Below, in pieces: positions 4,336 to 36,083 of a stretch of DNA of 36,083 nucleotides. The position numbers and the translations under genes were made by a program. Below the pieces are notes generated by a model, which saw only the letters and a program-made list of their open reading frames with translations, was not told the origin of the DNA and searched no databases. Position 1 is the stretch's first letter. Every line of letters begins with the position of its first letter. The stretch is from a virus: IMG/VR virus record IMGVR_UViG_3300017524_000107, positions 1 to 36,083 of that record; one strand, given 5' to 3'.

Positions 4336-5472
4336 TCAGAAGAGGTCGAACACATTGCCATCGAACCGACCGACCTCTGCAGGCACCCACGACGTTCCAT
4401 TGTAGTAGAAAATCTGCCGGTTGTCCACGAACCCCGCGCTATCAGCAACCCGCGGGCCGGACGTATACACCTCAGCAGTTGCCGTACTCTGTGGTGAGCC
4501 AAGTGAAACAGTAGCGTCGAATGCACTGATGGCATACTCGTATGATTCGGCCGGACTGACGTCCGTATCCTCGAACTGCAGTGTGTTTCCGCCCACGGTG
4601 GCTATCCGTGCGAAACTGCTATCTGATGGGCCCTTTCGTCGGATGCGATACGCTGTCTCATCGGCGTTGACATCGGTCCAGTTTATTGTGACCGATGGTG
4701 GCGTCGACACAAGCGAGGGTGCCTCAGGCACCGCTGGAGGAAACTGTATCTCAACCGTTCCATCGCCGGTGTTACCACCGGCCCTGTTGAATGAGCCGTT
4801 TGTATCGACATTCACGAGGCTGGTCCCCCCACCACCACCAGTTGCAGTAGCGTCGTCGGACCCCAGTTCTACGTTGCCGGCTCCGCCCCCTCTGTGTCCA
4901 CCACCCCCACCACCACCTACGGCAGCTATTTTGACGTTGTCAAAATCCTCAGTGTCAGACCTGGCAGGCCCATTTGCTCCCGCATTACCTGACTGCGCAC
5001 CAGCGAGGCCACCATCGAGAACTCTGTCGAATAGGGAGTCCGCTACGTCCGTATCTGGTGCGTCTTCGTCTCCTGCACCGCCACGACCACTTACCGCAAC
5101 ATCCCTTGAGTTTGAGTCGTCGTCAGTTGCAAATGCAGCACCCCTCCCACCGGCCCCACCAACCGCAATCGCGGTAGACCCATCAGGTCGGCGAACGTAG
5201 GTTCCACCAGCACCACCATCTGAGGTCGCAGTATTACCACCAATACTCCTACTATTCCCGTTACCACCGTTCGGGAACCCACCTGACTGTCCACTGTTAG
5301 AGCCACCAACGGTCACATCAATAGTCTGTCCTGGACTGACATTCAGCCCACCCTGTACAAACGAACCAGGTTGGCCAGAACCGGCACCCGATGCCTTGAT
5401 GAATACCTCAAAGACCCGACTTGGCACGGTGAACGTTTCAGTAGCTGGACCATTGTATATTACGTTCGGCAT
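4336..5472 (-). CDS. Glycine-rich tail fibre or adhesin with FnIII-like domain
   Basis: A 378-aa predicted receptor-binding protein at the tail tip. Residues about 20-260 are dominated by glycine, including runs such as GGGGGGG, with a repeated VGG/GGAGG pattern like that of phage glycine-rich adhesins. A fibronectin-type-III-like domain follows (about 265-345; VTINWTDVNADETAYRI and YEYAISAF). The C-terminus (QIFYYNGTSWVPAEVG) resembles a fibre tip motif. The start at 5472 lies one base past the TAA of the upstream gene; longer frames would overlap it. No GTCGC motif is present, consistent with coupled translation. Host-receptor specificity is inferred. Confidence 0.75.
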   Translation of the reverse strand: MPNVIYNGPATETFTVPSRVFEVFIKASGAGSGQPGSFVQGGLNVSPGQTIDVTVGGSNSGQSGGFPNGGNGNSRSIGGNTATSDGGAGGTYVRRPDGSTAIAVGGAGGRGAAFATDDDSNSRDVAVSGRGGAGDEDAPDTDVADSLFDRVLDGGLAGAQSGNAGANGPARSDTEDFDNVKIAAVGGGGGGGHRGGGAGNVELGSDDATATGGGGGTSLVNVDTNGSFNRAGGNTGDGTVEIQFPPAVPEAPSLVSTPPSVTINWTDVNADETAYRIRRKGPSDSSFARIATVGGNTLQFEDTDVSPAESYEYAISAFDATVSLGSPQSTATAEVYTSGPRVADSAGFVDNRQIFYYNGTSWVPAEVGRFDGNVFDLF

Positions 5473-5473
5473 C

Positions 5474-6211
5474 TTATTTTTGCACCCACAGGTCATCGGT
5501 GGACGGATTGCTTGGCTCGGTTGACTGAACGTAGATTTCTCTCCCTCCAACGGTGTCTGCATTGTTGGCTGCATCAGCCTGCGTTGCCTGGTCAGCCTGG
5601 ATAGCTGTCTCAGCTCGAAGCCCCGAGCCGGCGCCGTCGTTGCCAGCATGGAATGATTCGTTCCCACCAATGGTCGTTCCGGAGACAAGTGTCGCCCCGA
5701 CGGCGATGCCTGCTGGCTCAGCGTCGTGCGCATCGATAATATGCGTACGGATGCCATCGTAAAGTGTCTCAAACCCGGCGTCGCGACCGAACGAGCCGGC
5801 TGGGTCACCAGCGGTTGCGTGTGCAATATCTGTGACGCTGTCGTGTTCACGGACACAGTGCGCACAGACCACGCGCTTTTGCTCACCACGGTGGTCATGG
5901 TAGTCAGTGTAGCCATAGGCACCCTCGAACGCTACATACTCTGCAACCCCGACAAACCGCTGGCTTCCGTTAGGCACCTGTATCACGGGGTCAACAAGGT
6001 CACCAACCAGTTCGCGAAGAAGGTCTGCAGCCATTGCATTGTCAATATCGAGTGATGTCGCGAGATACGAGATAGTCTGTGCTCGGGTTCGCATGGTTCC
6101 TTGCTCGTCGATGAGCAGGTGAACCGCATCAAGGAGCAGTTCCTTCACCCGCTGGTGGCGGGGCATTGCGTTTGCCAGGATGTCGTCTGCGTCGTAGGTT
6201 GTCTCGGTCAT
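5474..6211 (-). CDS. Tail fibre connector with zinc-finger-like segment
   Basis: A 245-aa protein between two fibre genes. Residues 1-85 are helical and closely resemble the short gene at 35621-35866 (shared LAT.LD and DIVDPV/DLVDPV patterns). Next comes CAHC with later His residues (about 120-165), a possible zinc site. The C-terminal part has the GSGL.A.T seam, an Ala/Asp repeat (QADQATQADAANNAD) and YVQSTEPSNPSTDDLWVQK, typical of tail-fibre ends. It is flanked by one-to-two-base junctions on both sides, so the three fibre genes form one coupled unit. Structural role inferred from these motifs and context. Confidence 0.7.
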   Translation of the reverse strand: MTETTYDADDILANAMPRHQRVKELLLDAVHLLIDEQGTMRTRAQTISYLATSLDIDNAMAADLLRELVGDLVDPVIQVPNGSQRFVGVAEYVAFEGAYGYTDYHDHRGEQKRVVCAHCVREHDSVTDIAHATAGDPAGSFGRDAGFETLYDGIRTHIIDAHDAEPAGIAVGATLVSGTTIGGNESFHAGNDGAGSGLRAETAIQADQATQADAANNADTVGGREIYVQSTEPSNPSTDDLWVQK

Positions 6212-6213
6212 GA

Positions 6214-6825
6214 TTACAGTGAGGCGTTTTCCGTCAGTTGCCCAGCAATCTTCAGGTCACCCGTTGTCCGGTCGAGATTGAGTCGGTCTGCATTCTGGGT
6301 GACATCTCGGACAACATAGGCGTCTCTCCCGTTGTCGTAAGCCTGTGCAACAGGCGCATTGAGCAATGGCAGTCCCTCTGGATGGCGTTGTGCGTTGTTA
6401 GTGACCTGTGCATTATTTTTATCAATGGCTGCAAGTGAAAGCCAACCATCGTCGGGCAACGTGCTTCCGTCAATGACACGAATAACTGGGCGGTCATTGC
6501 TGCTCAGATTAGGGTCAAGGTAGACCTTATTATCTCCAGTTGACAGCTGTGTGCTGGCCAACATTGCAACGCCAGTTCTGGCCTGCAGCTGTACGGTGAA
6601 CCCGAGCGCCTGTCGTGTTTCGCCCGAGCTGGCTGCAACACCATTGTCCCGGTGAATACGAGCGATACCCTCGGTCACATCAAAGGTTTCTGCAGTAAAG
6701 TCAGCGTTCACCACTCGCATTCCCTGGACAACATAGTCGTTGAGCCGGGGGTCACCTGTTAGCTGAGCAAAGTTCTCGGCATCATTGTCATCAGCATCCT
6801 GTGGAAAGACGTGGTCTTGAACCAT
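6214..6825 (-). CDS. Tail fibre protein, baseplate-proximal
   Basis: A 203-aa beta-rich protein, first of the fibre cassette. Its ending (RLNLDRTTGDLKIAGQL) is the short repeat typical of tail fibres and matches the partial protein at 35916-36083 (LDMDLTTGDLDIEGQI). The N-terminal half resembles baseplate-attached fibre proteins in general composition, though no specific family is recognised. TGTCGCACA sits directly before the ATG. It follows the baseplate genes in transcription order, as expected for fibres. Confidence 0.7.
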   Translation of the reverse strand: MVQDHVFPQDADDNDAENFAQLTGDPRLNDYVVQGMRVVNADFTAETFDVTEGIARIHRDNGVAASSGETRQALGFTVQLQARTGVAMLASTQLSTGDNKVYLDPNLSSNDRPVIRVIDGSTLPDDGWLSLAAIDKNNAQVTNNAQRHPEGLPLLNAPVAQAYDNGRDAYVVRDVTQNADRLNLDRTTGDLKIAGQLTENASL

Positions 6826-9810: not shown

Positions 9811-9962
9811 TGGTGGTGGATATCAGGGGTCAGTGCGAGTTTGCTCGGCAACATTGATACTGAGTGATGCTGGTTCATCATCATCGGTGAGCGTTGCCCA
9901 GCGTCAAGCTGGAGGTCGAACTGCTCATCCAGGTCAAAGGTCCGACTGTCTGGAACTGTCAT
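9807..9962 (-). CDS. Small ORF before baseplate J, probably frameshifted
   Basis: From the ATG at 9962 (preceded by GTCGCACG) the frame runs 51 codons to a TGA that overlaps the J start. Its first 20 residues (MTVPDSRTFDLDEQFDLQLD) look haloarchaeal, but the rest (SPMMMNQHHS) does not. The adjacent frame over the same bases reads LTDDDEPASLSINVAEQTRTDP and ends at 9823, and looks genuine. A one-base change near 9893-9908 would join the two good halves into a protein of about 45 aa. This may be a sequencing error, a real mutation or recoding. Function unknown. Confidence 0.5.
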   Translation of the reverse strand: MTVPDSRTFDLDEQFDLQLDAGQRSPMMMNQHHSVSMLPSKLALTPDIHHQ

Positions 9963-10145
9963 CGTGCGACGTCAGGGCCCATCTGCAGTGTCTCTCATTA
10001 CACCGGCACCGTCAAGACAAACGATGACCCTGGTAGGACAGACAAACAATTCCTCCCCAACTATTCCCTGTTGTGTACGACTGTACTACGGTATATATTT
10101 TCCACGTAGTTAAATCCAACGGGAATTAGTAGTATTAGGGGCGTC
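9963..10145. other. Intergenic gap between spike gene and small ORF
   Basis: This 183-base gap holds the repeated element at 10086-10113 and an A/T-rich stretch at 10090-10140. No open frame with convincing composition was seen. The GTCGCACG before the ATG at 9962 lies at its left edge. It interrupts an otherwise tight baseplate operon, so it may hold an internal minus-strand promoter. Confidence 0.45.
10086..10113 (-). promoter_or_regulatory. Repeated element B, candidate internal promoter
   Basis: On the minus strand TTAACTACGTGG is followed by ATATATACCGTAG, matching element A at 345-375 in order and orientation relative to its downstream gene. The ATG it would serve is at 9962, leaving a leader of about 100 bases. 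TATA-like content supports a promoter; the conserved flanks suggest a regulator site as well. Inferred only. Confidence 0.45.
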
Positions 10146-10841: not shown

Positions 10842-10850
10842 AGTGTTTGT

Positions 10851-21832: not shown

Positions 21833-22696
21833 CTATCCCTCGATGAAGACGCCAGCGTCCTCCTCCATCACAAGCCAGCCATAGCGGGCCATGATGCGGA
21901 AGATGTCGGCCATCGAGCGCTTCTCCTCGTAATCCTCGGTCATGACGGGATCGCGTACCCCCTCATAGCCGAAGTAATCAGAGTCGACCATCAGCGCAGC
22001 TGGGCCGGATACTCCGCCGATTTCAATTGTGGAGGAGTCCTCGATGATGGTGAGCCCTGCGACCTCACCGACCATGCCGGACCGGCGCATCTGTGCGCCT
22101 TCGTTGGTCGCATCAAGGAAGTCCGTCCCAAGCAGGTCGTGGGTAGCCTCGACATCGACAATGAGCATGTCAGGATCATAGCTCTTCTCGACAAGGTTTC
22201 GACGGCCAGCAAGCAGGTCGTCGAACTCGAAGGTCCCATTAGCGCCACTGTCCTTTGAGACGGTGGTGCCACCGATTGAGGCCTCGATTTCCTCGTAGGC
22301 GCGTCGGTTCATGTCCTCGGCCATTTCACGGGCCTGGCGGTCAACCTGGTCACGGACCAGATTCACCTGTGAGTCCTGCTGGGACTCGTAGGTCAGCTCG
22401 ACCTCGAAGCCGAACTTGTCGAACTCGAGGGTCTCGAGTCGGTAGTCCTCTTGACTACGTGGGAACTCGGCACCTTCTTCGACCAGCTTTGGCTGTCCCA
22501 TATTCTCCTGTGGGACAGGTAGCTGCACGACGTTGGAGTTGATGTTGCGCGCGTTGTATTCCCGGAAGACCTCCCGGAAGTTCAGCGGTTCCTGAACAAT
22601 ATCTTCGACGCGGTCTTCCAGAACAGGCTGCGCGAGCAGACCATCGATATCCTGGAACGAAACCGCCAGCTCGGCAATGGATTCGTCAGTACTCAT
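21833..22696 (-). CDS. Major capsid protein, HK97 fold
   Basis: A 287-aa protein right after the scaffold and decoration genes. The N-arm (SIAELAVSFQDIDGLLAQPV) is followed by an E-loop-like segment, a long helix rich in Arg and Glu (QVDRQAREMAEDMNRRAYEEIE, about 135-155) and a C-terminal strand series (ITEDYEEKR-like region, about 255-285). Length is on the short side for an HK97-type coat but usual for haloarchaeal myoviruses and encapsulin-like forms. The leader before the ATG (CAACATTTCAATCCA) is almost the same as that before the nested scaffold start. Confidence 0.8.
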   Translation of the reverse strand: MSTDESIAELAVSFQDIDGLLAQPVLEDRVEDIVQEPLNFREVFREYNARNINSNVVQLPVPQENMGQPKLVEEGAEFPRSQEDYRLETLEFDKFGFEVELTYESQQDSQVNLVRDQVDRQAREMAEDMNRRAYEEIEASIGGTTVSKDSGANGTFEFDDLLAGRRNLVEKSYDPDMLIVDVEATHDLLGTDFLDATNEGAQMRRSGMVGEVAGLTIIEDSSTIEIGGVSGPAALMVDSDYFGYEGVRDPVMTEDYEEKRSMADIFRIMARYGWLVMEEDAGVFIEG

Positions 22697-22726
22697 TGGA
22701 TTGAAATGTTGTGTCAGTCAGGGGTG

Positions 22727-23788: not shown

Positions 23789-26700
23789 GGTTGAAATTGT
23801 AGCAGTGGTCTGAGCCGACCGGGATGGTCGGTCCGACGCAATTGTAGCGACGGTTAGCGATGAACGAGCACCCATCTCCTCGGCATCCTCCATATCGATA
23901 GGTGGACTGTCGAACTCTTCGTTGAGCTGCATCAGAAATGCTTCCAGCGTCTCCTGGCTGACATCGTAGTCTCCCTGACCTCGCAGTTGCCAGGCAGCGT
24001 CTACGTTGCCCCGCCGGAGCTGGCCGTCGGCGTCGACGACCGGATAGCTGGAGTCAGACTTGATATCACTCGGGAAGATGTAATGAGGCTCGAAGCCCTC
24101 GCTTGGCAATGCTGTCTCGTCAAGGTCGCCCATTTTGGTCCCCTCAAAGGTGACCGAGAGCGAATCTTGCTCAACAGTTGATGCGAGTTCTTCAGCCCCA
24201 CAACAGGGTGTCGTTGCGCCGTCGTCTGCGACTTTCGTAATGGCTGCGTATGAATCAGAGGCAGCCGATTGGTAGGCCTGCATCGACCCACACGGCATGT
24301 AGATCGTCTCGCCCCCGGACTCGTGCTCGTGGAAGCCATCACAGCCAAGGTCGTCTGCACGATTCTGTGCAGCCTCCTTGGTGGCATACTGGTCACTCTC
24401 CATCCGGGATACCGTCTCCTCGTCACTCTTGCCGGATGGGGTATCACTGTAGCTCACAGCGAGATTCTCGTAGCCGGGTTTGTCAGCCAGGTCGCCGTCT
24501 TCAGGTTTATCTGGAATCATTGGAAATGGATTGTGGGCCCAGTTCAAGAGACTGATGCCCCACCTACTTGGACACCCGTGTACACCATCCATCGGCGACT
24601 CGGGTTCGTTCTCCGAGGCAGACATCCGGCTGATAAACGAGATGGTCCGCTTGGCATCTGCGAGATGCTCGTCGGTCCAGTCGGTCTTGTTCGTCTCAAG
24701 TAGCGACAGATTCCGCTCCAGTACCGCCTTTGGGTCGAGTGAGGCCTCTTTCGAACATGGGTTTGCTGCCCACCGACGAAGCTCACTGGCAGACATGGTG
24801 ACCGCATCGTTCCAGTCAGCATAGACCGAATCAAGCTCATCGCCATCGACCATAAGTGATTCACTGGTATCCGTCCAGCTCTGGTCATATGGGCCCAACA
24901 GTGCAACCGCACCATCGCCCTCGCTAACGGCATTCTCACTCGATTCGGATGTGGCCCGCGGATGCCCATCTGGCAAGAGGTCGTTGTCCTGGGTATATGC
25001 GTCATTCTCTGGGTTCCCGTTGCGGACAAGATAGAGAAATGCGTTGACCCGAGCCATCGACCACTGGTTGCGACTCATCCCCTTGCGGTGACTGCTGGAG
25101 TAGGCACCGGCACCACGTCGGTAGACTGCCTTCAGCTTGCGAAGTGTGACCCGCTTGGAGTCTGCATCGTGCTTGTCGTTGTGTTTCTCAACCTTGTTCT
25201 CCAGGCCGGTGGTGACCTGGTCAGAGAAATCAATATCAGCTGGTGAGGAATCAGCCGAGCCCGAATCGTTTGTATCGGAGCCAGACCGCCCATCACCCTC
25301 GGCCTTGCGGTCGTCGGATGCCATCTTCTCGTCAGTTTCGACCGGTCTGACGTCAGTGTAGGATGCGGTATCGGTGTAGCCCGTTGTGACGAGCTCACCG
25401 TCCATCCGCTTGTGTACCTCCACCATGACAACATGATTTTCTTCATCGATGTGAACGACGCGTCCGACCTTGTACGGACTCGACTCCCACTCGACAATGT
25501 CGCCCTCACCATAGCTGGTCGGGCGCATCATCATCTCGGTGATGATAGCGTCATCAGATGGGTAGTTGCCCCAGCCCTCGACGTCGTCCATACTCTTTGT
25601 AACTGTGTCACCGTTTGTCTTCCACGTACCATCGCTCAGTTGCGTCCAGACCTCAATGGTCACCTCATCGTCAGACACAGATGTTGCATACCCGTGCTTC
25701 TCTGTGGTCTCTGATGGATACCACTGTACCCACTGGTCTGCTTCAACATCATACTGCTCGACATTTGAACGACCAAGTTCGGCTGCCGTTTCTTCAAGAA
25801 TCTTAAATGAGTGTGATTGAATACCAATATCAGCATCATCAGCGGTCCTCCGGACTAAAATCTCTGCAACATCAAGGTTCGCGTGCGCGAGTTCGTTTTG
25901 TCTGGTGTCAAGATACAATCGGTTTTCGTTGTAGTACGCGTTTGTGGTGACACCAGCAACAAACTCATACAAGCGTGAAATCTCGTCAAGTGCGGAGTCG
26001 GGCAACCGGTCATCCATCATGAAACATGGCTGGATTGAGTGCCCCTCGGCATCCCCTCCAATGAATGTGGTTGACTTTTGACGAATGTCGGTGGTGTTGT
26101 CAAACGCTGACTCAATAATATCAAGATGCGGGTGCATAAACTCAGTTATGCCCACACCCGTATCTGGGATAGGTTCAACAAACACACCCTCATCGCCCAC
26201 CGACACAGAGATATCTTTGCCGAGTTCGTCTTCTGCGATAGAAACCGCTTCCATCACACCATCTTCGGTTGCGTCTTCTGGGAGTGGTGTAAAGAATGTG
26301 GCCCGGCGCTCACCCCCTTCAGGTCGAGACACCATCGGATCATCAGCGAGTTCTGAAAGAGCCTGAAGATGTGCGTTATCTGAAAGTTCAACAGGCGACT
26401 CAGAGACATTGGCTGGCTCATCAATCGAGCGGACACTGTCTCCATAGTGGCCGATACGCCCCCCAGTGGTGGGGTGCAACGTGTTGGACGCGCCCATCTC
26501 TGCCATGTCCGATTCTGACGGCAACCACATCTCGACCGCACCCATCGGTAGCGTCTCCTCCTCGCCTGAAGAGGCCCATCCGTCGTCGCCCTCCTCGTAC
26601 ACGTCGATTGTGAGCATGCTCCCGCTCACGTCGGTGACTTCACCGTAGCCCGAGCTCGAGTCGGTCTCCCACTGGACCATGTTGCCATCGGAGACGTCTT

Positions 26701-27301
26701 TGGCGAGCATCTCGGGATCGTAGCCACGTTCGAGTGTGGCCGTTGCCATTTCTCCGTCCTCAAAGGCAGACATCGCAACCGCATGGTCAGGTGAGAACGA
26801 ATCGGCTGCGCCAAAGTTTGCCGTGTTGGATGGCGAGGCGCCGTCATTGACAATTGACAGATTGGAGAACCGAGCATTGTGTACCTCGAGTGTGGCATCA
26901 TCGTAGTTCTCCAGTACCGACTCCGGTGGGTGCTTGATTCGGGGTGATACGTCTTTGATACCGGCTGCGACATCGCGAGCGAGCTGCTCGTAGTGAGGCG
27001 CTATCTCTGCCTCGTAGCGAACGCCGACACCTGGGTCAAACCAGGCCTTTGTCACGGTCCCAACATGGCCATCGCTGTTGTTGATATGATCTTTGACAAG
27101 TGGCTTGCCTTCGAGGCTATCGACAGCCTCTTTCAGCGTTGCAGCCGGCCAGTACTTACGGATACCTGACTGACCAAGGGTAATGTCGCCCGAGCCAAGC
27201 GCGATACCATGAATCGGGTATGGCTCATCACCATCGACCGCAGAGACACTGGCTGAAAGCGAAGCTGTGCCAACACCAGCGTACTCAGTTGTACCGGACA
27301 T
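23150..27301 (-). CDS. Giant prohead protease-scaffold fusion (1383 aa)
   Basis: The N-terminal 165 residues resemble prohead proteases (KPLVKDHINNSDGHVGTV, with a candidate His at 72 and the segment DVSPRIKHPPES). Three Tudor/SH3-like repeats follow, at about 208-262, 524-578 and 603-655, each with a V.W......G.V.....V.V pattern. Between them is an unknown domain (about 300-490). Residues 715-785 carry a W..ARVNAFL...QDNDLLP module known from phage protease neighbourhoods; 970-1010 holds GC-GFHEHE...YMPCG. From about 1172 to the end is an acidic coiled-coil scaffold. Far longer than a typical protease (200-500 aa). Roles of the inserted domains are unknown. Confidence 0.75.
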   Translation of the reverse strand: MSGTTEYAGVGTASLSASVSAVDGDEPYPIHGIALGSGDITLGQSGIRKYWPAATLKEAVDSLEGKPLVKDHINNSDGHVGTVTKAWFDPGVGVRYEAEIAPHYEQLARDVAAGIKDVSPRIKHPPESVLENYDDATLEVHNARFSNLSIVNDGASPSNTANFGAADSFSPDHAVAMSAFEDGEMATATLERGYDPEMLAKDVSDGNMVQWETDSSSGYGEVTDVSGSMLTIDVYEEGDDGWASSGEEETLPMGAVEMWLPSESDMAEMGASNTLHPTTGGRIGHYGDSVRSIDEPANVSESPVELSDNAHLQALSELADDPMVSRPEGGERRATFFTPLPEDATEDGVMEAVSIAEDELGKDISVSVGDEGVFVEPIPDTGVGITEFMHPHLDIIESAFDNTTDIRQKSTTFIGGDAEGHSIQPCFMMDDRLPDSALDEISRLYEFVAGVTTNAYYNENRLYLDTRQNELAHANLDVAEILVRRTADDADIGIQSHSFKILEETAAELGRSNVEQYDVEADQWVQWYPSETTEKHGYATSVSDDEVTIEVWTQLSDGTWKTNGDTVTKSMDDVEGWGNYPSDDAIITEMMMRPTSYGEGDIVEWESSPYKVGRVVHIDEENHVVMVEVHKRMDGELVTTGYTDTASYTDVRPVETDEKMASDDRKAEGDGRSGSDTNDSGSADSSPADIDFSDQVTTGLENKVEKHNDKHDADSKRVTLRKLKAVYRRGAGAYSSSHRKGMSRNQWSMARVNAFLYLVRNGNPENDAYTQDNDLLPDGHPRATSESSENAVSEGDGAVALLGPYDQSWTDTSESLMVDGDELDSVYADWNDAVTMSASELRRWAANPCSKEASLDPKAVLERNLSLLETNKTDWTDEHLADAKRTISFISRMSASENEPESPMDGVHGCPSRWGISLLNWAHNPFPMIPDKPEDGDLADKPGYENLAVSYSDTPSGKSDEETVSRMESDQYATKEAAQNRADDLGCDGFHEHESGGETIYMPCGSMQAYQSAASDSYAAITKVADDGATTPCCGAEELASTVEQDSLSVTFEGTKMGDLDETALPSEGFEPHYIFPSDIKSDSSYPVVDADGQLRRGNVDAAWQLRGQGDYDVSQETLEAFLMQLNEEFDSPPIDMEDAEEMGARSSLTVATIASDRPSRSAQTTATISTMNEITYDGADKETIASLSDPVVVERADLESVRDEADRADNVEEELSELRAELGAFSDAQDILSEIDEATVEELAEADEPVVIEAGEFETQEKVVEQAAGIYAEELANHSPFSAEELSDRWDPAELRDKVEDHDEAELSASIETEEPAPSGGSASTEELSGVDEDSRTAEMEESAARSFVAEELEKFGWDKQAEKVREGDIPVDAFDIAIEAE

Positions 27302-27451
27302 AAGAGGGTATATCTCACCGCATAACCGCGGTGCAGTGCGACGTGAAAGGCGACTGTGTTGACTACGCCTTCGACTTATCGGTAGTCACGACGCCGTACT
27401 TAAATAAGCACGCTACACAGCCTGTAGCACTCGAAACCGACATCGCGTGTA
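27302..27451 (-). promoter_or_regulatory. Leader and promoter region of protease gene
   Basis: This 150-base gap contains a TATA-like TTATTTAAGTAC (minus strand, around 27397-27408), a stem CACCGC/GCGGTG at 27316-27333, and a GTCGCAC copy at 27336-27342 that is not next to the protease ATG. The AAGTACGG core recurs at 34496-34505. A promoter driving the head genes is plausible. No coding sequence was recognised here. Confidence 0.4.
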
Positions 27452-27718
27452 CTACCTGGTTGGCCCACCGCAGTCAATTTTATTCATCTGTATCAGCTTT
27501 GATGAGCCTCCATGGCCATGGATGCGTTTGACAGCCTCGATTGAGTCATAGACCGCAACCGAGGTGAGTCCCTTGTTCGCAACCCAGCCAAGTGCTACTC
27601 GCGCGTTCGGTTCGGGAAATCTGATTCCGAATGCAACAGTTCCTTCGCCGGAGATACCGGACGTATCCTCCTGCCGATAGAGCTGGAACAGCACCAGGTC
27701 GTGGGGATTTGGATTCAT
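27452..27718 (-). CDS. Hypothetical small protein (88 aa)
   Basis: The frame is open further upstream, but the ATG at 27718 is preceded by TGTCGCACCG, the viral pre-start motif, so an 88-aa product is proposed. It reads as a compact alpha/beta domain (PNARVALGWVANKGLTSVAVYDSIEAVKRI). An alternative start at 27842 would overlap the previous gene by 42 bases; the extra residues do look haloarchaeal, so this is not settled. Function unknown. Confidence 0.55.
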   Translation of the reverse strand: MNPNPHDLVLFQLYRQEDTSGISGEGTVAFGIRFPEPNARVALGWVANKGLTSVAVYDSIEAVKRIHGHGGSSKLIQMNKIDCGGPTR

Positions 27719-27800
27719 CGGTGCGACATGGCATACCGCGGTCGTAGCTGAATACTGGTTCTCGGTGGTAATAGTGTAGTCGGTGTGCTGGGGCTGGTGC

Positions 27801-28472
27801 TCAGTCGCCACCGTTTCGCCAGTAGGTCGTTCCGTATATCTCATCTTTGAATGAGGCACAGAACCGCTTGGGTGCAACGACGTTGCCTCGCATCTCTCTC
27901 ACACAGCCCCGGAAGCTTGCCCCCATCGAAGTCCAGGCATCAAGCGCAATAAGCCGGGCTGGTTTATCCGCCTTGACCCAGGAATCAGGCCAGGATTTAA
28001 AGCCCAGTCCGGGTGTTGTCAGCACGGCCTCGCCGACCACCTCCCATGCATCCTGGTCGCCAATTGGGCAGTCTGCGGTGAGTGTGGCCTGGTCAAGCTT
28101 GTCGAGATACTGCTCTGCAGACTCTTTTTCTTCGGTACCGAAGGCCTCTTCCTCGGGCATTTTATCCAGCTCACTCGCTCGGAACGGCTCAACACCCGAA
28201 TCCTCGGTCGCCAGCAGATAGATTGGTGAGCTACGGCGCCCGTCCAGCTTCCCATCATCGGTGAGATATTTCGCATCAAACTGGTCTGCATCGTTCCACT
28301 CGGTTGCCTCGGTGAACACCTCAGTCACAACGCCAATTCGCTGCTCGGAGCCATAGACGACAACATCTGCCTGTGTATACCGTGAGAGTCGGGCAACCTG
28401 TAGCGTCGCAAGTAGCGATTCGATATCGTCGGATTCGTATGCCGTAATATGATTGTACATTGGCTTAGTCAT
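27801..28472 (-). CDS. Conserved phage head-region protein of unknown function
   Basis: A 223-aa protein. The C-terminal third has a pattern I recall from many phage genomes near protease genes: GFKSWPDSWVKADKPARLIALDAW, then MGASFRGC and KRFCASFKDEIYGTTYWR. The N-terminal third is likely helical with a central strand. Its start at 28472 overlaps the upstream stop by 8 bases; an ATG at 28460 with GGTGAT about 10 bases before it is the alternative. No enzyme motif is visible. Virion or packaging role inferred. Confidence 0.7.
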   Translation of the reverse strand: MTKPMYNHITAYESDDIESLLATLQVARLSRYTQADVVVYGSEQRIGVVTEVFTEATEWNDADQFDAKYLTDDGKLDGRRSSPIYLLATEDSGVEPFRASELDKMPEEEAFGTEEKESAEQYLDKLDQATLTADCPIGDQDAWEVVGEAVLTTPGLGFKSWPDSWVKADKPARLIALDAWTSMGASFRGCVREMRGNVVAPKRFCASFKDEIYGTTYWRNGGD

Positions 28473-28932
28473 CACCGCGGTCAGCATCGTGGTTCAGCTG
28501 TCGGTCATCGATACCACCGGCCAACTGCCCAATTGACTGGGGTATCGACTTGACATAGTAATATCCAGGGTCTCCTGCCGTATCAGCATCGTCGGTCAAC
28601 TGCTTGAATATCCGGCGCCGTGTTGCCATATCCATCTCCTGGTAGACCAGCATCGACCAGTAATAGGCATCACCTATTAATCCGTAGCTATCGCTGTACT
28701 CCTCGATATTGAACTCAGCAACTCGACGTGCGAACCCGCACGGATAGACATAGAACCGATGTTCGGACTGGGCGGTGAAGAACAACGAGAACATCTCGAT
28801 TGACTCACCGGGTGTCATGGCCCCATCGAGTAGCGCATCGATAGTGTAGCGTCCCCAGACCAGTGTCCCGTTACGGGCACCTCGGGGGTAAAAGTCCTCC
28901 TGTAGCTCGACCATGACGGCGTCTTCGGGCAT
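28465..28932 (-). CDS. Hypothetical protein (155 aa) in head cluster
   Basis: The start at 28932 is chosen because GTCGC abuts it; a longer frame to 29049 exists but would overlap the small gene at 28952-29128. The product is aromatic-rich in the middle (EHRFYVYPCG, YYWSMLVYQEMDMATRR) with an acidic, His-containing end. No membrane segment. Its neighbours are portal and protease genes, so a head role is likely. Family not recognised. Confidence 0.65.
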   Translation of the reverse strand: MPEDAVMVELQEDFYPRGARNGTLVWGRYTIDALLDGAMTPGESIEMFSLFFTAQSEHRFYVYPCGFARRVAEFNIEEYSDSYGLIGDAYYWSMLVYQEMDMATRRRIFKQLTDDADTAGDPGYYYVKSIPQSIGQLAGGIDDRQLNHDADRGDD

Positions 28933-28951
28933 GCGACGTGACCGACCCAAC

Positions 28952-29128
28952 TTAGAGCTCGACCCGCTCATCGGCATCGAGCCGGCCGAATCCAGTACGC
29001 CACTGGTCATCGGTCGGGGTGAGAAACACCATCTGGTGGTCCTCAACAATTGAGCGAGGCGTCCCGATGACGTATGCCGTGTCGCTCAACTGCTCATTGA
29101 AGATGACCGGCATAATGGCTTCACTCAT
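28952..29128 (-). CDS. Small protein (58 aa) after portal
   Basis: A 58-aa ATG-started frame ending in TAA at 28952, with GTCGC five bases before the start. Composition is good for a haloarchaeal protein (VIFNEQLSDTAYVIGTPR, then FLTPTDDQWRTGFGRLDADERVEL). It fills the gap between the portal gene and the 155-aa gene, with 37 and 19 bases on either side. Beta-rich; function unknown, possibly a minor head protein. Confidence 0.6.
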   Translation of the reverse strand: MSEAIMPVIFNEQLSDTAYVIGTPRSIVEDHQMVFLTPTDDQWRTGFGRLDADERVEL

Positions 29129-29165
29129 GATATGCGACGAGTAGACGTATGGGTGACACTACTGT

Positions 29166-31394
29166 TTAGCTTTCGGTCATCTCCTCGACAACCGGAGCCA
29201 GCTCGCTTCGACAGCCGTAGTGGAACGGTGGCAGCCCCATCGGGCGGAATCCATCCGGCGGTGTCTCATCGACCTGTCGAGCCAGCTGGGCCATCACCGG
29301 CTCAGACGCGTTAAACGAAGCCATGACCGGTCCGCGGTCACCACAGGATGCAATCTGTTTGCAAAGCAGGGTGGTGTTAGCCGTACATGGATTGATGATT
29401 TGGACACCAACAACCCGGTCATCGGCCTCGTATTCGGCGAGCTTGGCCTCGTTGATGAGTGACTGGGCCCGCATTCGGGCCTGGACCGATGCCTGACTGG
29501 CCAACATGCCCTCGGTAAATGTATCACGGACGATGTCGGCCCCAGCTTCGGTGAGCCTGCTGCCTGACTGGACCCGACGGACTGCCCGCGCCATGTCAGT
29601 TGCCACCGAATCCATATCCGCTCTGAGCGAGCGATAGGCCTCACGGCGGAGTCGGGTCGACCGTTGCCGGTCAAGACGCATCTGTGGGACGTGATTGGGC
29701 TGCTGTAGGGTATCATCGACTCGGTCGAGCACTGAGCCGAACATGGCCGAAGACGTCATCTGCAGGCCAGCACGGTCCGCTGCGCCGGCCAGTGATTGCA
29801 TGGCTATCTCCTGCAGTTGCGAGCCATCGGCTGGCTCACGGCGCTGTCTGGCCCGCTCAAGCAGTACATCGAGTGTATCAGCGTATATCGTACTGATGCT
29901 CTCACGCAGCTCCTGTTCGAGGTCACGGGTCCCAACCAGTCGGGCATCAGCCAGCTCGGCGGTGCCTGGCTCGATGGTCTCCAGTGGGTCATCCACGGGC
30001 CCATCGAGTGAGGCCAGGTCGGTCAGGTCGGGAACCACATCCGACCGGGTGCCACCAGGGTCAACCGGTGCATCACCGTCGCCATCATTGACACCACCAG
30101 GGTCATCACGCTCATCAGCAGCTGCCTGGCCCTTGGCATCCACATCGGAGGTGTACCGAATAATGTTCCCACTGACATCCTCGGGGAGCACATCACCAGC
30201 ACGGCGCTCGATATGCAGCTCGATTCCCTCCGTATCCAGCCCCCATGCCTCTGCGACATCGCGAAAGTATCTGGTCATCAGCTGCTCTTGCTCACGACGG
30301 AGCTGTCGGACGTACTTCCGATACTTGCGTTCCTGTGCGCTGGCAATAGATGGTGCCAGTTCGTTCTCGAAGGTACCCAGGACGTATTTGGGTGCGGGCA
30401 TCCCCGAAAGAATAATGTTCACATCGGTCGAAACGGTCTCCTCGATATCGGCCGTCTCGCCGGCAAACTCCTCAACCTCGATGTCACCAGGGACCGCCTG
30501 GTACATCCCAGGGCCAAAGTTCTCGCCATCATACGACTCCATGAACGAATCAATCTCGTCCTGTGTCCACGGATTCTCGGCGGTTCCTGTCTGGAACAAC
30601 ACCATCGGCCAGGCCTTCATTGCCACCGCATCGTCGTTATCCCGGAGCTTGGCCTCAAGTGCCAGCGCACGGTCATAGACGCGCTCGACCACGCTGGTGC
30701 CCCACACATCGCCCACATCGGGGTTGTTTGCCCAGTGAAGTATCTCGTCGCGAGCAAACCGACGCTCGCTCTTGGTCTGCCAGTTGAACTCAGATGAGTT
30801 ATCGAACTGCACGTAGGCAGCAGCGGTCTCCTTTGGCGTTAACTTGACATGGTCGAGATGCGTATCGCTGGGCTGGACGACAACATTCGTATCCGGGTCG
30901 GTGTAAATCTCGAACGTCTCCTTCTGGAGCGGGTTCAGCCCAACCGGCTTTCCATCATCGTTGACCAACTTCTCACAGACCCAGTCACCGCGGGCCAGAT
31001 ACTGGACCACACCCTGGTAGCCTACCTTCGAGAGGTTACGCTTGGGCCGATTGCCAACATAGCCTATCTTCTCACCAAACTCGGTGAGCTCACTGGCCGT
31101 GGTTGCATCATCAGCTTCGACATACCACCCTGGCTCCCAGACCTCGCTTGCGACATCATCAATTGGGGTCCCAACGAATGGGTTGGTCTCATAGAGCCGG
31201 TAGTACTCACTGGTCTCGTTCTGTGGGCGCTCAATCTCAACATCCCGACCAGAGAAGAGCTTTGACCACCCACGCTTGCGTCGGTCGTCAGACTGCTGGT
31301 AATCTCGGGGGGTGCCGTCCTGGTCACCGGCAACGAGAGATGCGACTGCTGTACGCGGGTCGTATCGACTCAGAATGCTGGTGTTCCTCGACAT
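29166..31394 (-). CDS. Portal protein fused to MuF-like minor head protein
   Basis: 742 aa. Residues about 50-420 follow portal proteins of the SPP1/HK97 type: TNPFVGTPIDDVASEVW, a clip/stem region (NDDAVAMKAWPMVLFQTG), and LSGMPAPKYVLGTFENELAPSIASAQERKYR. A hydrophilic linker (about 420-500) is followed by a C-terminal domain (about 560-742) like MuF/gp7: CTANTTLLCKQIASCG and LPPFHYGCRSEL. Such domains are usually separate genes; here they are one frame. The ATG follows AAGGAGTACAGGGAAGC, containing GGAG 11 bases upstream. It is the entry channel for DNA. Confidence 0.85.
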   Translation of the reverse strand: MSRNTSILSRYDPRTAVASLVAGDQDGTPRDYQQSDDRRKRGWSKLFSGRDVEIERPQNETSEYYRLYETNPFVGTPIDDVASEVWEPGWYVEADDATTASELTEFGEKIGYVGNRPKRNLSKVGYQGVVQYLARGDWVCEKLVNDDGKPVGLNPLQKETFEIYTDPDTNVVVQPSDTHLDHVKLTPKETAAAYVQFDNSSEFNWQTKSERRFARDEILHWANNPDVGDVWGTSVVERVYDRALALEAKLRDNDDAVAMKAWPMVLFQTGTAENPWTQDEIDSFMESYDGENFGPGMYQAVPGDIEVEEFAGETADIEETVSTDVNIILSGMPAPKYVLGTFENELAPSIASAQERKYRKYVRQLRREQEQLMTRYFRDVAEAWGLDTEGIELHIERRAGDVLPEDVSGNIIRYTSDVDAKGQAAADERDDPGGVNDGDGDAPVDPGGTRSDVVPDLTDLASLDGPVDDPLETIEPGTAELADARLVGTRDLEQELRESISTIYADTLDVLLERARQRREPADGSQLQEIAMQSLAGAADRAGLQMTSSAMFGSVLDRVDDTLQQPNHVPQMRLDRQRSTRLRREAYRSLRADMDSVATDMARAVRRVQSGSRLTEAGADIVRDTFTEGMLASQASVQARMRAQSLINEAKLAEYEADDRVVGVQIINPCTANTTLLCKQIASCGDRGPVMASFNASEPVMAQLARQVDETPPDGFRPMGLPPFHYGCRSELAPVVEEMTES

Positions 31395-31427
31395 GCTTCC
31401 CTGTACTCCTTCAGTAGTCGGTGCGCG

Positions 31428-31436
31428 CTTTTTAAG
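31428..31436 (-). promoter_or_regulatory. TATA-like site upstream of portal
   Basis: On the minus strand CTTAAAAAG is centred 38 bases before the portal ATG, giving a predicted transcript start about 12 bases before it, inside the Shine-Dalgarno-containing leader. The AT-rich context stands out in the 221-base gap 31395-31615. Inferred. Confidence 0.4.
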
Positions 31437-31471
31437 TACACTATCTCCATACGAGCAGGTAACAACAAGAG

Positions 31472-31499
31472 TTAAGTATCTGTAGCATATACCACGTAG
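31472..31499 (+). promoter_or_regulatory. Repeated element C in terminase-portal gap
   Basis: TTAAGTATCTG, then ATATACCACGTAG, on the plus strand. Order and spacing match elements A, B and D. Here the plus-strand orientation points away from the portal and into the end of the terminase gene, so it is either an antisense promoter, an operator that works in both directions, or a symmetric regulator site. The rest of the 221-base gap shows no gene. Confidence 0.4.
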
Positions 31500-31615
31500 T
31501 AGAGTACTTTTCTACAAGGGTTGGTTGGGGAGGATTCTGTACGTACATTGGGATGGTGTGTTCCTACCTGGCCGTGTCTGGTGATACCGACCACGTCTGG
31601 ATGGCACCGACCGAG

Positions 31616-33079
31616 TCAGTCACGACGACGCGATTGTCGGTCTCGACGCGGTGACCGTCGGCGTTGATTCGATGTTCGGCTATACCGTCGACCCGTGGAT
31701 GCTGACCCATTCAGCCGGTCGCGACCCATGGTGAACGAGCGGGCCTTGGTCCCGCCCTGTGCCCCCCGTGTCTGCCCACCGGTGGTGTCGGGCCGGGCCC
31801 AGTTGGCCAGCACCATGGCGTCGACATAATCATCGTGCCCGGTTCGAGCGTGTAACGAGAGGTTTCCCGTTTTGGTCTTTTCATAGCCGATTTGGGCCAG
31901 CTGGTCGCGAAGCTGGGTGCCGTGTTCATCTATCGGGATGGCGAAGTTGCCCCGTTCGAGCTCGGCCTTGGCCGACTGGTAGGCGGTCTGTTTCTTCTGG
32001 ACGGTCAGATACAGGTTTGATACCCGACCGCTGATATCGGCATAGGTATCGAGCTGTTCGACGGTTCCCTGGCCGAGTCCGGACCGGTCGACCACTATCT
32101 GCTCGAAGCCAAACTGCTTGTCGATGACGCTGATGCGTTCGGCTGCATCAAGCACGCCCATCTGGCCATAGCACTCCGTGTGAAAGAGATTACCCAGCTC
32201 ATCGACCGCCATCAGCACGGTATCGTCGGCACCCGCAGCTGCGATGTCAGCGCCCAGAAATGCCCGTGACCCGGTGAACCCAACCCGATCCTGTGTGCAG
32301 GCCCGAATCGCATCGGTTGCAAAGAACTGTGCGCCATCATCGACAAAGTCGCCATGCACCTCCTGGGTAATCTGGGTCTTGGTCTTGCCTCGCTTGTACT
32401 CTTCCAGGTCTGATTCATCGACCAGTGGCGAGCGCTCGGAGCTGATTCCGCCGTTGTCGCTGTCCCAGGTGGAGTAGTTGTCATCGTTTGCGTCCTGGGC
32501 CCACTGGGTCCCCTTCCGATAGAAGTAGCCAGACGTCCCCCACGGGGTCGAGGTTAGCACCAGGTCACCGCCGGTCGCGAACAGTGAGGGGACCAGCACA
32601 TCGGTGATGATGGTGTCATCCAGAAAGGCTGCCTCGTCGATGATGATGAGCGCGGGTGAGTAGCCACGCACGTTCGACCCGTCGAGACCGGTCGGGATGC
32701 AGTGTATCTCAGACCCGTTATCGAACTCAAGAATGGTCTGTGTGTCCCGGTCGACCCCCCACATACCGTCACCAAAGCCCGAGTCGCCCATCTCTGAGCG
32801 GAGCGTCTTGAACAGGAGCGAGCTCTGACGCTGCGATGGGGCCGTGATAAGCACGGTGGCGTTTGGCTCGGTCAGGGCCTTGTGTAGCGCCAGCCAGGCA
32901 GCGGTGAGTGACTTGCCGACCTGACGCCCGCTAACGAATGCCTTTCGCTTGCCGGGGTGGTCGAGAAACCGTTTCTGGTAGTCGAACGCCTCCTTGCCAA
33001 TCACCGTCTCGATAAATACGGAGGGCTTTGCTCGAAGGGCCTCCCAGTCGACGTCGTCACCGTATCCTGCTGGGCTCAT
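31616..33079 (-). CDS. terL: Terminase large subunit
   Basis: 487-aa packaging motor ATPase and nuclease. Walker A is SGRQVGKS (50-57), Walker B with catalytic Glu is LIIIDEAAF (144-152), and the RNase-H-like nuclease acidic residues are D277 (GADIAAAG), D331 (VVDRSGLG) and the D/D pair in GHDDYVDAM (about 416-417). A basic Arg-rich C-terminus follows. The ATG at 33079 is chosen over a GTG at 33100 because CCCGTCGCA directly precedes it. No small terminase gene was recognised with confidence; the small genes at 33.3-33.8 kb are candidates by position only. Confidence 0.9.
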   Translation of the reverse strand: MSPAGYGDDVDWEALRAKPSVFIETVIGKEAFDYQKRFLDHPGKRKAFVSGRQVGKSLTAAWLALHKALTEPNATVLITAPSQRQSSLLFKTLRSEMGDSGFGDGMWGVDRDTQTILEFDNGSEIHCIPTGLDGSNVRGYSPALIIIDEAAFLDDTIITDVLVPSLFATGGDLVLTSTPWGTSGYFYRKGTQWAQDANDDNYSTWDSDNGGISSERSPLVDESDLEEYKRGKTKTQITQEVHGDFVDDGAQFFATDAIRACTQDRVGFTGSRAFLGADIAAAGADDTVLMAVDELGNLFHTECYGQMGVLDAAERISVIDKQFGFEQIVVDRSGLGQGTVEQLDTYADISGRVSNLYLTVQKKQTAYQSAKAELERGNFAIPIDEHGTQLRDQLAQIGYEKTKTGNLSLHARTGHDDYVDAMVLANWARPDTTGGQTRGAQGGTKARSFTMGRDRLNGSASTGRRYSRTSNQRRRSPRRDRQSRRRD

Positions 33080-33283
33080 TGCGACGGGGCTGGTGGACAC
33101 GGACTACGTGGTGGGGCCGATTGACAGGGCTGCCCCCCGGACCCGGAACACGTTGGGCGTGATGGCGCGCCCCTTCTCCTGGTTGTGTCTGACAGTGCTA
33201 TGTGAATACCAACATGGGTAAGTCGAAACTGAATGACCACAGAAGAACCGGGCCGGATGCGACAGAACGGATGGCTATGGGGG
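33080..33283. other. Intergenic gap upstream of terminase
   Basis: 204 bases with no convincing open frame. A minus-strand frame from the previous gene region reads Arg/Pro/Cys-rich and does not look haloarchaeal. A GTCGCATCC copy (minus strand, about 33253-33261) has no start codon next to it. GC-rich stretches (33130-33175) could fold. I see nothing else. Confidence 0.4.
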
Positions 33284-33514
33284 TTACTGGTCGTGGTCGT
33301 GAGCGTCTGCTGGCTCACCGGGCCCATCTGCATCCGCACGCTCGTTCAGTTGTTCAATCAGCTGTTCTTTGTTGTTGAACAGCTCAACAACCTGGTTTGA
33401 GACCGTCTGGGCAAGCAGTCCGTCGATGGTCTCTGCCTCGATTTCCTCGTCTGCAACAAGGACGCTGTACAGATGCTTGGTGGATTCAGAGAACTCCGTA
33501 AGTTCCAGTTTCAT
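33284..33514 (-). CDS. Small acidic protein (76 aa)
   Basis: 76 aa, helical (EEIEAETIDGLLAQTVSNQVVELFNNKEQLIEQL), with an Asp/His tail. The ATG overlaps the TGA of the previous gene (ATGA), so it is coupled to it. Position just upstream of terminase would suit a small terminase or a regulator, but no DNA-binding motif is clear. Function unknown. Confidence 0.6.
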   Translation of the reverse strand: MKLELTEFSESTKHLYSVLVADEEIEAETIDGLLAQTVSNQVVELFNNKEQLIEQLNERADADGPGEPADAHDHDQ

Positions 33515-33813
33515 GCGTTTTCGATTGCGATGTTTTCCTCAGCAGCGGTCGCATCATCTTCGACGTTGACGGCCATCCCAGCGACGGTGGCTGCCAGCTC
33601 GTCGATGTCAGCTGCGATAGTGTCTTTTGCTGATGCCTTGGCGATGGTCAGCACTGCACGCCGGTCCTCGGGCTCGACGTCGAGTACCATGTTTGACCAG
33701 TCGACACGATAGTCGGTCGCCGATTGAATGGCATATAGCTCAGTGATGAGCCCCTGGGCATCTGTCTCTGTCATACCGCCGTACGTACCGTTGTATACAA
33801 CTTCGTGTGTCAC
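33511..33813 (-). CDS. Small acidic protein (100 aa), GTG start
   Basis: A 100-aa frame starting with GTG. The start is supported by GGTGAT at 33822-33827, a good Shine-Dalgarno match 8 bases upstream; an ATG at 33774 is the alternative. Two parts: ITELYAIQSATDYRVDWSNMVLDV (beta) and an Ala-rich helix (AKDTIAADIDELAATVAGM). It overlaps the preceding short ORF by GTGA. Function unknown. Confidence 0.6.
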   Translation of the reverse strand: MTHEVVYNGTYGGMTETDAQGLITELYAIQSATDYRVDWSNMVLDVEPEDRRAVLTIAKASAKDTIAADIDELAATVAGMAVNVEDDATAAEENIAIENA

Positions 33814-33896
33814 GAGTGATAATCACCAGTTTCGTCCCCACCACGGGACTCGTCGGGCCACTGAATGGCTATGGCGACCGGTAAATCGATGTGCAT
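33810..33896 (-). CDS. Very short ORF (28 aa), dubious
   Basis: From an ATG at 33896 a 28-aa frame (DLPVAIAIQWPDES) ends in a TGA sharing bases with the next GTG. A GTG at 33920 would give 36 aa and lies about 25 bases from the TTAATAATA of element D. Composition fits the genome and the overlap suggests translational coupling, but at this length coding is uncertain. Confidence 0.35.
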   Translation of the reverse strand: MHIDLPVAIAIQWPDESRGGDETGDYHS

Positions 33897-33945
33897 CACT
33901 GACCTGGTTGGATGCGTCACGGCTACTGGTAGTCGTTCGATATTA

Positions 33946-33975
33946 TTAAGTGCGTCGGTATATATACCGGTGTAG
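33946..33975 (+). promoter_or_regulatory. Repeated element D with TATA palindrome
   Basis: TTAAGTGCGTCGG runs into the perfect palindrome CGGTATATATACCG, followed by GTGTAG. It shares the TTAA...TATATAC...GTAG order with elements A-C. Because its core is symmetric, it could act on either strand; on the minus strand CTTAATAATATC lies about 25 bases before a possible GTG at 33920. No plus-strand gene follows. It is probably a promoter or regulator site. Confidence 0.45.
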
Positions 33976-34012
33976 TACGTAGAGACGCCGGGTATCCAGG
34001 ATACTGGGGTGT

Positions 34013-34156
34013 CTACTGGCGCAGTTGCTGGTACGATTCGTGAATCTCTGACTCAGCCATGGCACGCAGATGGTCTTCCATTTCGTCGCCATGGATGGCT
34101 GTTAGCTCGTCCAGCATGCCTTCATGGAAGTCCGAGATATCTATTTCAAGAGACAT
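34013..34156 (-). CDS. Small helical protein (47 aa)
   Basis: 47-aa frame with ATG at 34156 and TAG at 34013. Its sequence (MSLEIDISDFHEGMLDELTA, then GDEMEDHLRAMAESEIHESY) is acidic and helical with typical haloarchaeal composition. The start overlaps the previous gene's stop by 11 bases, an operon-like arrangement. Function unknown. Confidence 0.6.
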   Translation of the reverse strand: MSLEIDISDFHEGMLDELTAIHGDEMEDHLRAMAESEIHESYQQLRQ

Positions 34157-34448
34157 TGATGGCATCCGTTGCGCTTGCAAGGTCATCTTTCAGGCCAGCT
34201 GAGACTGCGAGGCCAGCAAGCGTGTCCTCATCAGCATCGAGCGTGGTTGCGGTCGTATCCATTGTCATGCTGACACGCATCCATATGCCGTCACCTCGCC
34301 ATCGGAGACTTCCACTGCGCACGGTGATAGCGTCATCAGACCGGTGACTCTGCGTCAGCGATTCAAGTGCAGTCTGCATGTCGGCAAGGTTAGCTTCACT
34401 GACTGTTCTGGTTCCGTCAAGTTCGAGTGTAAGTTCGTGATTACTCAT
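34146..34448 (-). CDS. Small acidic protein (100 aa)
   Basis: 100 aa with a beta-rich half (ELTLELDGTRTVSE, SGSLRWRGDGIWMRVSMTMD) and an Ala-rich helical end. The ATG at 34448 follows GCGGTGCTATACAG. The upstream gap contains a TTAAGTACGG element on the minus strand. Probably first gene of the small-gene operon down to 33284. Function unknown. Confidence 0.6.
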   Translation of the reverse strand: MSNHELTLELDGTRTVSEANLADMQTALESLTQSHRSDDAITVRSGSLRWRGDGIWMRVSMTMDTTATTLDADEDTLAGLAVSAGLKDDLASATDAINVS

Positions 34449-34685
34449 CTGTATAGCACCGCATTATCGGCCAAACTACCAATTTACTGTAGTATGTCCG
34501 TACTTAAGTTCATTACTATCAGGCGACTGTTGCAACGTAACTACGCAATGTGACAGACATGTGTCCCCAACGGTATGTTTCGCATGCTCTACGTAGGGGG
34601 TGTACGCTTTCCGAATATTCGCTACTGTGTTATGCATTTGATTGCGCATGTATGTATTGCAGTTGTACCATACCAGTTGGATTAA
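34449..34685. other. Intergenic gap with promoter-like repeat
   Basis: 237 bases between the small-gene cluster and the decayed fibre. On the minus strand CTTAAGTACGG (about 34497-34507) followed by ACATACTACAG resembles the core seen in the protease leader and elements A-D. Two further TACGTA-type sites lie at about 34537 and 34590. No gene was seen. It is AT-richer than the rest of the window. Confidence 0.4.
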
Positions 34686-35636
34686 TTATAATGTCTTGAA
34701 TCTCGGTGGCGCCCCGGTTGAATACTCTTGAATTTGTTCCAAGGCAGGAGCGACCAAGAAAAGTTTTTTACCATCGTTACTGAATCTAAGACTCCTCCCG
34801 TCGAAGTCGTTTATTTCCATGCCTTCAGTGAGAAATTTGATGGTTCCAATATCGAAGGGTGTGGGCAACTCTCCCACAGAAATATTGCCTCTCGTAATGC
34901 CAAATATTTTTCTTCCGTTCGCACTAAATGTGAAGCCTCTTGTATCAAAGGTAGCAAAAAACCTATTTATTGGGCCAGTGTTGGTGCTCAGCGTAGAAAA
35001 ATCAAATGCTGTCGAGAGTGGATGCTGATAAATCTCACCTACCCCGAGTTCAAATAATTTTGTCCCATCGTCATTAAACTCCATTGCTTCTGGGCGGGAG
35101 TCCTCGGTTTGAACGGTCTGTTGCAATGTGGCAGTGGATACATCAAAGGGTGTAGACAAGCTCAACTCCAAAAACTCCTCACGGTCACTGTCCAATTCAA
35201 AGAGCTTTGTACCGTCGTTGTTAAATACTATGTCTTGTATTCTATCGCTCTGAGATGGATTAGATTGCTGAAACGTGGCGGTGGAGATATCAAACGGTGT
35301 AGACAGCGTTGAAGTTGCAATCCTTTGACTTGAACTTTGACTGTCAAATCCTGCTTCAAATAGTTTGGTACCATCGTCGTTAAACTCTATTGCTCTCGTG
35401 TTACCAAACTGCGTTTGAATGGACTGCACAACCGTGTTATCCTCGACGATAAACCCATCTTCGCCAACTGACTGTCGATACGAATTTTCATCCTGAACGA
35501 ATGCTATCTGTGGTGGATTTACTGCAGGTAGGTCGGCTTCGGTGGATACCGAAAGAATTTCTATGGGCGTTATCGCGCTGAGTGTTGACCCATTGAGTGT
35601 ATCCGCATCGAGTCCAGAGCCTATCCCAGTATCTGC
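34686..35636 (-). pseudogene. Beta-propeller-like tail fibre, start lost to frame change
   Basis: About 316 codons open in the -1 register relative to the gene at 35621. It opens ADTGIGSGLDADTLNGST, a classic fibre seam, then has five repeats with cores such as EFNDDGTKLFE, VFNNDGTKLFE, EFNDDGTKLFE, TFSANGRKIFG and RFSNDGKKLFL, paired with L(S/P)T.FD.(S/G)T. Each repeat is about 48 residues, as in WD40/YVTN-like propellers. There is no ATG upstream of 35429 and none near the beginning of coding sequence. It could be reached by frameshifting or be a broken gene. A receptor-binding domain in another copy is likely. Confidence 0.6.
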
Positions 35637-35866
35637 TGGACGGGGTCGACGATATCGCCGACCGTGTCAGTGATTGCCTGATTTGCCTGGTCAGCTCCGA
35701 CATCGAGCTCGGTAGCAAGTTTCCTGATAACGGCAGCACGTGTGTAGAACGCACCAACGTTGTCCTCGTCGAGGAACCACGCCAGTGCGTCCGTGGCGAG
35801 CTCACCCCGAGTTTTCTGTCGCGCTCGGTGCTCCTCGATGAGGTCGAGCGCATCGTATGAATCCAT
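35621..35866 (-). CDS. Truncated copy of fibre connector gene
   Basis: 81 aa, matching residues 1-85 of the connector at 5474-6211 (RARQKTRGELATDAL, LATELDVGADQANQAITD, DIVDPV). It stops at TAG just where the fibre seam GSGLDADTLNG begins in the -1 frame. The zinc-finger-like part of the longer copy is missing. The simplest reading is a deletion that fused the N-terminus to another fibre and shifted the frame. The leader is AT-rich (AATAAAGTACAT before the ATG). Confidence 0.6.
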   Translation of the reverse strand: MDSYDALDLIEEHRARQKTRGELATDALAWFLDEDNVGAFYTRAAVIRKLATELDVGADQANQAITDTVGDIVDPVQQILG

Positions 35867-35915
35867 ATGTACTTTATTGTTGTGGAATTTAATAAATTCG
35901 TCGGTCGCTGTGATT

Positions 35916-36083
35916 TTACAGTGCTGATCCTTCGGTTATCTGGCCCTCAATATCGAGGTCTCCAGTGGTGAGGTCCATATCCAAGCGTGTGTTGCCAGAT
36001 TGGTCACTTACGATGAATACATCATTCTGCGTATTGCTCGATGCTGCACCTTTGCCGAGAGCTATTACACCATCACCAGTGTT
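35916..36083 (-). CDS. Tail fibre protein, C-terminal fragment at window edge
   Basis: The last 55 codons of a minus-strand gene whose start lies beyond the window. Its end (DQSGNTRLDMDLTTGDLDIEGQITEGSAL) matches the ending of the fibre protein at 6214-6825 (LNLDRTTGDLKIAGQL). The order, fibre end then connector then adhesin-like fibre, repeats that of 6825-4336. It therefore looks like a second copy of the fibre cassette. Confidence 0.6.
   Translation of the reverse strand, partial: NTGDGVIALGKGAASSNTQNDVFIVSDQSGNTRLDMDLTTGDLDIEGQITEGSAL

Follow-up and report, generated by a model that had tools for sequence, protein, structure and literature searches.

A second fibre module with a predicted propeller head and a broken frame in a probable haloarchaeal tailed virus

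In phiCh1 and phiH1 (Vertoviridae), one of two tail-fibre copies is silent, its start codon missing until it is inverted; the copies are inverted and adjacent and are served by Int1 (PMC6210493). They flank Int1 and are alike at the DNA level. The adhesin of the hafunaviruses has been implicated as a determinant of host range (PMC8651126, PMC7230728), and haloviruses possibly make their tail chaperones by way of frameshifting (PMC7230728).

Here we analysed an entire IMG/VR record of 36083 bases (“the window”). Like phiCh1 and phiH1, it holds two copies of tail-fibre genes, one of them without a start codon. In contrast to theirs, the two cassettes of the window have the same orientation, lie 29 kb apart, and come without a DNA repeat or an adjacent recombinase.

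The virus is probably a haloarchaeal tailed virus of temperate lifestyle, and its hosts are probably salt-loving archaea. Its terminase is closest to that of Halogranum tailed virus 1 (HGTV-1, 38% identity), the nearest isolate by this protein, and a sibling contig (IMGVR_UViG_3300017575_000049, hereafter G001; 57735 bases, overlapping window positions 1-26415 in reverse) encodes an integrase resembling those of haloarchaeal viruses; together these make a haloarchaeal tailed virus likely. The integrase is of the tyrosine type (Pfam Phage_integrase), with relatives in pleomorphic and tailed viruses of haloarchaea, and this suggests that the virus is temperate. The window also encodes a Holliday junction resolvase at 721-1278 (Pfam Hjc). 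An intergenic repeat occurs three times, always between operons (10037-10133 and 31469-31505 of the window, and L027 14362-14455 of the sibling), with two copies identical over 34 bases; this may be a promoter repeat comparable to the AT-rich intergenic ones of HF1 and HF2.

Two fibre cassettes with related ends

The intact main cassette consists of three genes.

6214..6825, minus strand: fibre protein whose C-terminus matches the fragment at the window edge
5474..6211, minus strand: 245-aa connector (“connector 1”) with an N-terminal anchor, a CxxC...H...H segment, a seam and a short tip
4336..5472, minus strand: glycine-rich adhesin (Pfam Gly_rich_2, 29.8 bits, cut-off 24.3)

The CxxC...H...H segment of connector 1, between the anchor and the seam, looks like a zinc site. 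A structure prediction for this protein, made from two sequences, had a pLDDT of 34 and gave an unusable model.

The second cassette (34686-36083, minus strand) is located upstream of the terminase gene.

35916..36083, minus strand: upstream fibre protein, C-terminal 55 codons, truncated at the contig edge with its frame open at the 5' end
35889..35896, minus strand: TATA-like box TTTATTAA with CGAA before it; putative promoter for leaderless transcription
35621..35866, minus strand: 81-aa copy of the N-terminal fibre anchor (“connector 2”), recognised by homology and coding signal; stop TAG at 35623-35621
31616..33100, minus strand: terminase large subunit, following the second cassette in the direction of reading

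The initial annotation had described this region as a second, decayed cassette in the same order as the intact one, with matches at both the edge fragment and the 81-aa gene and then a fibre with another binding domain. As regards order and homology, these claims held. The edge fragment (36083-35919) was identical to the end of the 6214-6825 product at 18 of 36 positions (50%, E 2e-9 for the pair), and connector 2 was 39-41% identical to the N-terminus of connector 1 over 77 aa (E 7e-12 against the whole window), so that the two N-termini align and the anchors are homologous. The gene order on the minus strand is that of the 4336-6825 cassette. The C-terminal heads differ, with a predicted beta-propeller in the second module taking the place of the glycine-rich adhesin. 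The conserved parts adjoin each other at the gene border, being C-terminal in the first protein and N-terminal in the second; they may represent the physical joint of two fibre parts or the borders of an exchanged cassette.

The centre of the TATA-like box is about 26 nt upstream of the ATG of the 81-aa gene, which is the TATA spacing of leaderless haloarchaeal transcripts. It is the sole occurrence of TTTAWWAA in the window (0.6 expected), and it is suggestive only, since the spacer is AT-rich.

Relatives of this cassette were scarce. A search for relatives of the connectors and their anchor among viral contigs, genomes, plasmids and phages returned only the sibling contig and a short match to the tip in HF2. 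No viral contig matched an exact 20-mer of connector 2, the nucleotide sequence of the region matched nothing among phage records, and sequence searches returned no second record spanning 26416-36083. The second cassette lies outside the overlap with G001, and no third cassette was found in the additional 31 kb of that contig. Terminase relatives led to 26 loci that were examined for syntenic cassettes, and none had these fibre genes; the position of the module, upstream of the terminase and at a distance of 29 kb from the genes of the main fibre, was not seen in the relatives examined. Rfam and tRNA scans returned nothing.

A predicted propeller head out of frame with its anchor

Beyond the stop of connector 2, the coding signal continues in a different frame.

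34686..35666, minus strand: second frame, from the last stop in the -1 frame to the fibre's own stop, open throughout
35623..35644, minus strand: change of coding frame by -1, from a codon-usage switch scan
35589..35621, minus strand: fibre seam GSGLDADTLNG, resembling the intact connector at its GSGL stretch
34710..35453, minus strand: five-bladed beta-propeller head with five FxxDGxKLF-type repeats, from an AlphaFold2 model, BFVD and sequence relatives
35427..35429, minus strand: GTG, candidate start of a possible stand-alone 247-aa propeller

AlphaFold2 modelled residues 63-310 as a beta-propeller, with pLDDT mostly above 85 and >90 over most of blades 1-3; the head alignment comprised the window protein and sixteen related stretches taken from viral contigs. 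Matches to the model include many PDB propellers of the WD40 type and, in BFVD, uncharacterised phage proteins (best TMq 0.73, rmsd 2.1 Å over 262 columns). Relatives of the head occur in tail proteins of Roseobacter, Lentibacter and Maribacter phages and in marine contigs. The head is AT-rich relative to the anchor (45% versus 58% G+C; 42% versus 66% at third codon positions), and this is consistent with an imported head.

A codon-usage model trained on twelve genes of the virus itself preferred the anchor frame as far as 35644-35632 and, beyond it, the -1 frame, with one clean switch. The two frames overlap by about 15 codons (35666-35621). An open run of 317 codons, as found in the -1 frame, has a chance probability near 1e-8 at the given base composition. 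This frame contains no ATG, GTG or TTG until GTG 35429, which is downstream of the seam. The seam had been reported to continue in the -1 frame past the stop of the 81-aa gene, and it does so within a frame that is open from 35666 to 34686. Compared with the intact connector, connector 2 lacks about 105 residues, from after a DPVxQ motif up to the seam, among them the CxxC...H...H segment. An out-of-frame deletion would account for both the shortness of the connector and the offset of the head. The reference for such a deletion is connector 1 alone, as no relative of connector 2 that keeps the middle segment was found in the same searches. We discounted phase variation at the C run, which has just four bases.

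The most likely explanation, to which we assign a probability of roughly 0.7, is that the locus represents a second fibre module for receptor binding, in which the head has been exchanged for a propeller and one frame-breaking event, either a real defect or an error of the record, has occurred. Such a module would share the anchor type of the main fibre, and its five-bladed head would replace the separate adhesin. Given the common anchor type, it would probably attach at the same site on the virion, and it would presumably bind a receptor. One event between 35644 and 35623 would have put anchor and head out of frame; in the simplest case, an out-of-frame deletion would have taken the middle of the connector with it. 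The event could be a genuine defect in the variant that was sampled or an error of the record. Translation of the record as written would yield the 81-aa anchor only, without a head.

Weighing the explanations

The sibling contig bears on the nature of the break. Over the 26.4 kb that it has in common with the window we counted 45 substitutions and no small indels. The substitutions are concentrated at 8030-12385 and 22017-22711, with 7 amino-acid changes in baseplate J and 5 in the major capsid protein. The contigs differ in a larger event.

9897..9898: 226-bp out-of-frame deletion relative to G001, which cuts a baseplate wedge subunit gene

In G001 the deleted stretch lies within an intact protein of 121-122 aa that resembles baseplate wedge subunits (phrog_120, E 6.5e-6; gene at L025 16454-16819), and an infectious virus should need this gene. 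The record thus holds two frame-breaking events, one of them in a gene that is likely needed, which speaks against a decay limited to a spare fibre. Cassette-specific decay is less likely than a defective variant or a fault of the record. Of the “decayed” cassette in the initial annotation, the frame break stands; the cassette is otherwise open, this break is the only one seen, and the upstream fibre runs off the contig edge. Likewise, the proposed deletion and fusion are well supported insofar as the module is shortened and fused, whereas decay of a spare cassette is unproven, because another frame-breaking deletion occurs in the same record in a gene that is intact in the near-identical G001.

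The break might be purely an error of assembly or sequencing, in which case the natural gene would encode an in-frame fibre of anchor, seam and propeller. We regard this sub-case of the preferred explanation as possible, with the odds against it. The baseplate deletion, in a gene that the virus should need, speaks for it, as does the lack of any further lesion in the second cassette. On the other hand, the absence of small indels over 26.4 kb points to a low rate of small errors, and the 226-bp junction lacks the microhomology that an assembly collapse would be expected to leave. A different possibility is that the propeller is a separate adhesin starting at GTG 35429, with the 81-aa anchor a separate small protein and the seam a relic. 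The GTG coincides with the beginning of the folded domain, so that the product would be almost exactly the propeller; a GAGG is found about 11 nt upstream, and in the main cassette connector and adhesin are likewise separate proteins. We nevertheless consider a separate start unlikely, since the roughly 70 codons before the GTG, including the conserved seam, retain coding signal in the same frame, the spacing from GAGG to GTG is long, and a head without the seam would have no evident means of attachment.

It could also be speculated that programmed -1 ribosomal frameshifting produces a short anchor and, less frequently, an anchor-propeller fusion. The overlap of about 15 codons, with coding signal for each frame on its own side, would suit such a mechanism, and a C-rich run (GAC CCC) would permit re-pairing of a single tRNA. 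However, reading the overlap (35666-35621) by eye revealed no X XXY YYZ slippery heptamer, the downstream RNA was not unusually folded (z +0.46; 127 of 200 shuffles folded as well or better), and no relative is known to retain the -1 offset, the searches having returned none for the junction. We know of no receptor-binding fibre that is made by frameshifting, and this reading is very unlikely. Less probable still is its extension, that frameshifting where the anchor gene ends sets the fraction of fibres that bear a propeller, so that one module gives virions with mixed fibres. We give the lowest probability to the second cassette being a silent donor, as the initial annotation had suggested, that would recombine with the main cassette to switch host range. 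The cassettes have their protein-level ends in common and differ in their heads, and phiH1 and phiCh1 offer a precedent in their silent copy. However, a search for matching or inverted segments yielded nothing above chance: the longest DNA word common to both cassettes has 13 bp in direct and 10 bp in inverted comparison, against 10-13 bp (direct) in random windows. Both cassettes have one orientation, with head and tail genes between them, and recombination would therefore excise these genes. No recombinase adjoins either cassette, and the only one found is the G001 integrase (42686-43708; L027 2686-3708), about 20 kb from the main cassette. G001 keeps the same main cassette in place, with identical fibre and connector and three codon differences in the adhesin, and thus reveals no alternative arrangement. 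Inverted copies with DNA similarity, and a recombinase of the Int1 type between them, as in phiCh1 and phiH1, are both lacking. The second cassette appears to be an ordinary alternative fibre affected by a single lesion or sequence error, and not a switching device. It also illustrates that a frame break in a single contig should not be taken for biological decay when a sibling contig reveals a second frame-breaking deletion in the record.

Relation to known fibre modules

The locus is of a known kind, that of mosaic receptor-binding modules. Among the haloviruses, the Hafunaviridae (HF1 and HF2) have a cassette that, like the intact one here, follows baseplate J and has a glycine-rich adhesin at its end. 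They have no full-length relative of the connector proteins, HF2 matching the short tip motif only, and in HF2 fibre genes are absent from the examined stretch upstream of the terminase. The fibres of HGTV-1 differ from those of the window, and none of the 15 loci examined in HGTV-1 and uncultured relatives has a fibre cassette upstream of the terminase.

The closest counterparts of the head are phage tail proteins with propeller repeats of the form FNxDGTKxYxxG...YQYxLSTAxDxSTASY. The head has both their repeat signature and their predicted beta-propeller fold, at 26-38% identity. In contrast to these proteins, it has only five blades and is out of frame with an unrelated halovirus anchor. 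The module would thus exemplify head exchange in tailed viruses of archaea, with a propeller of the marine-phage type joined to the fibre anchor of a halovirus.
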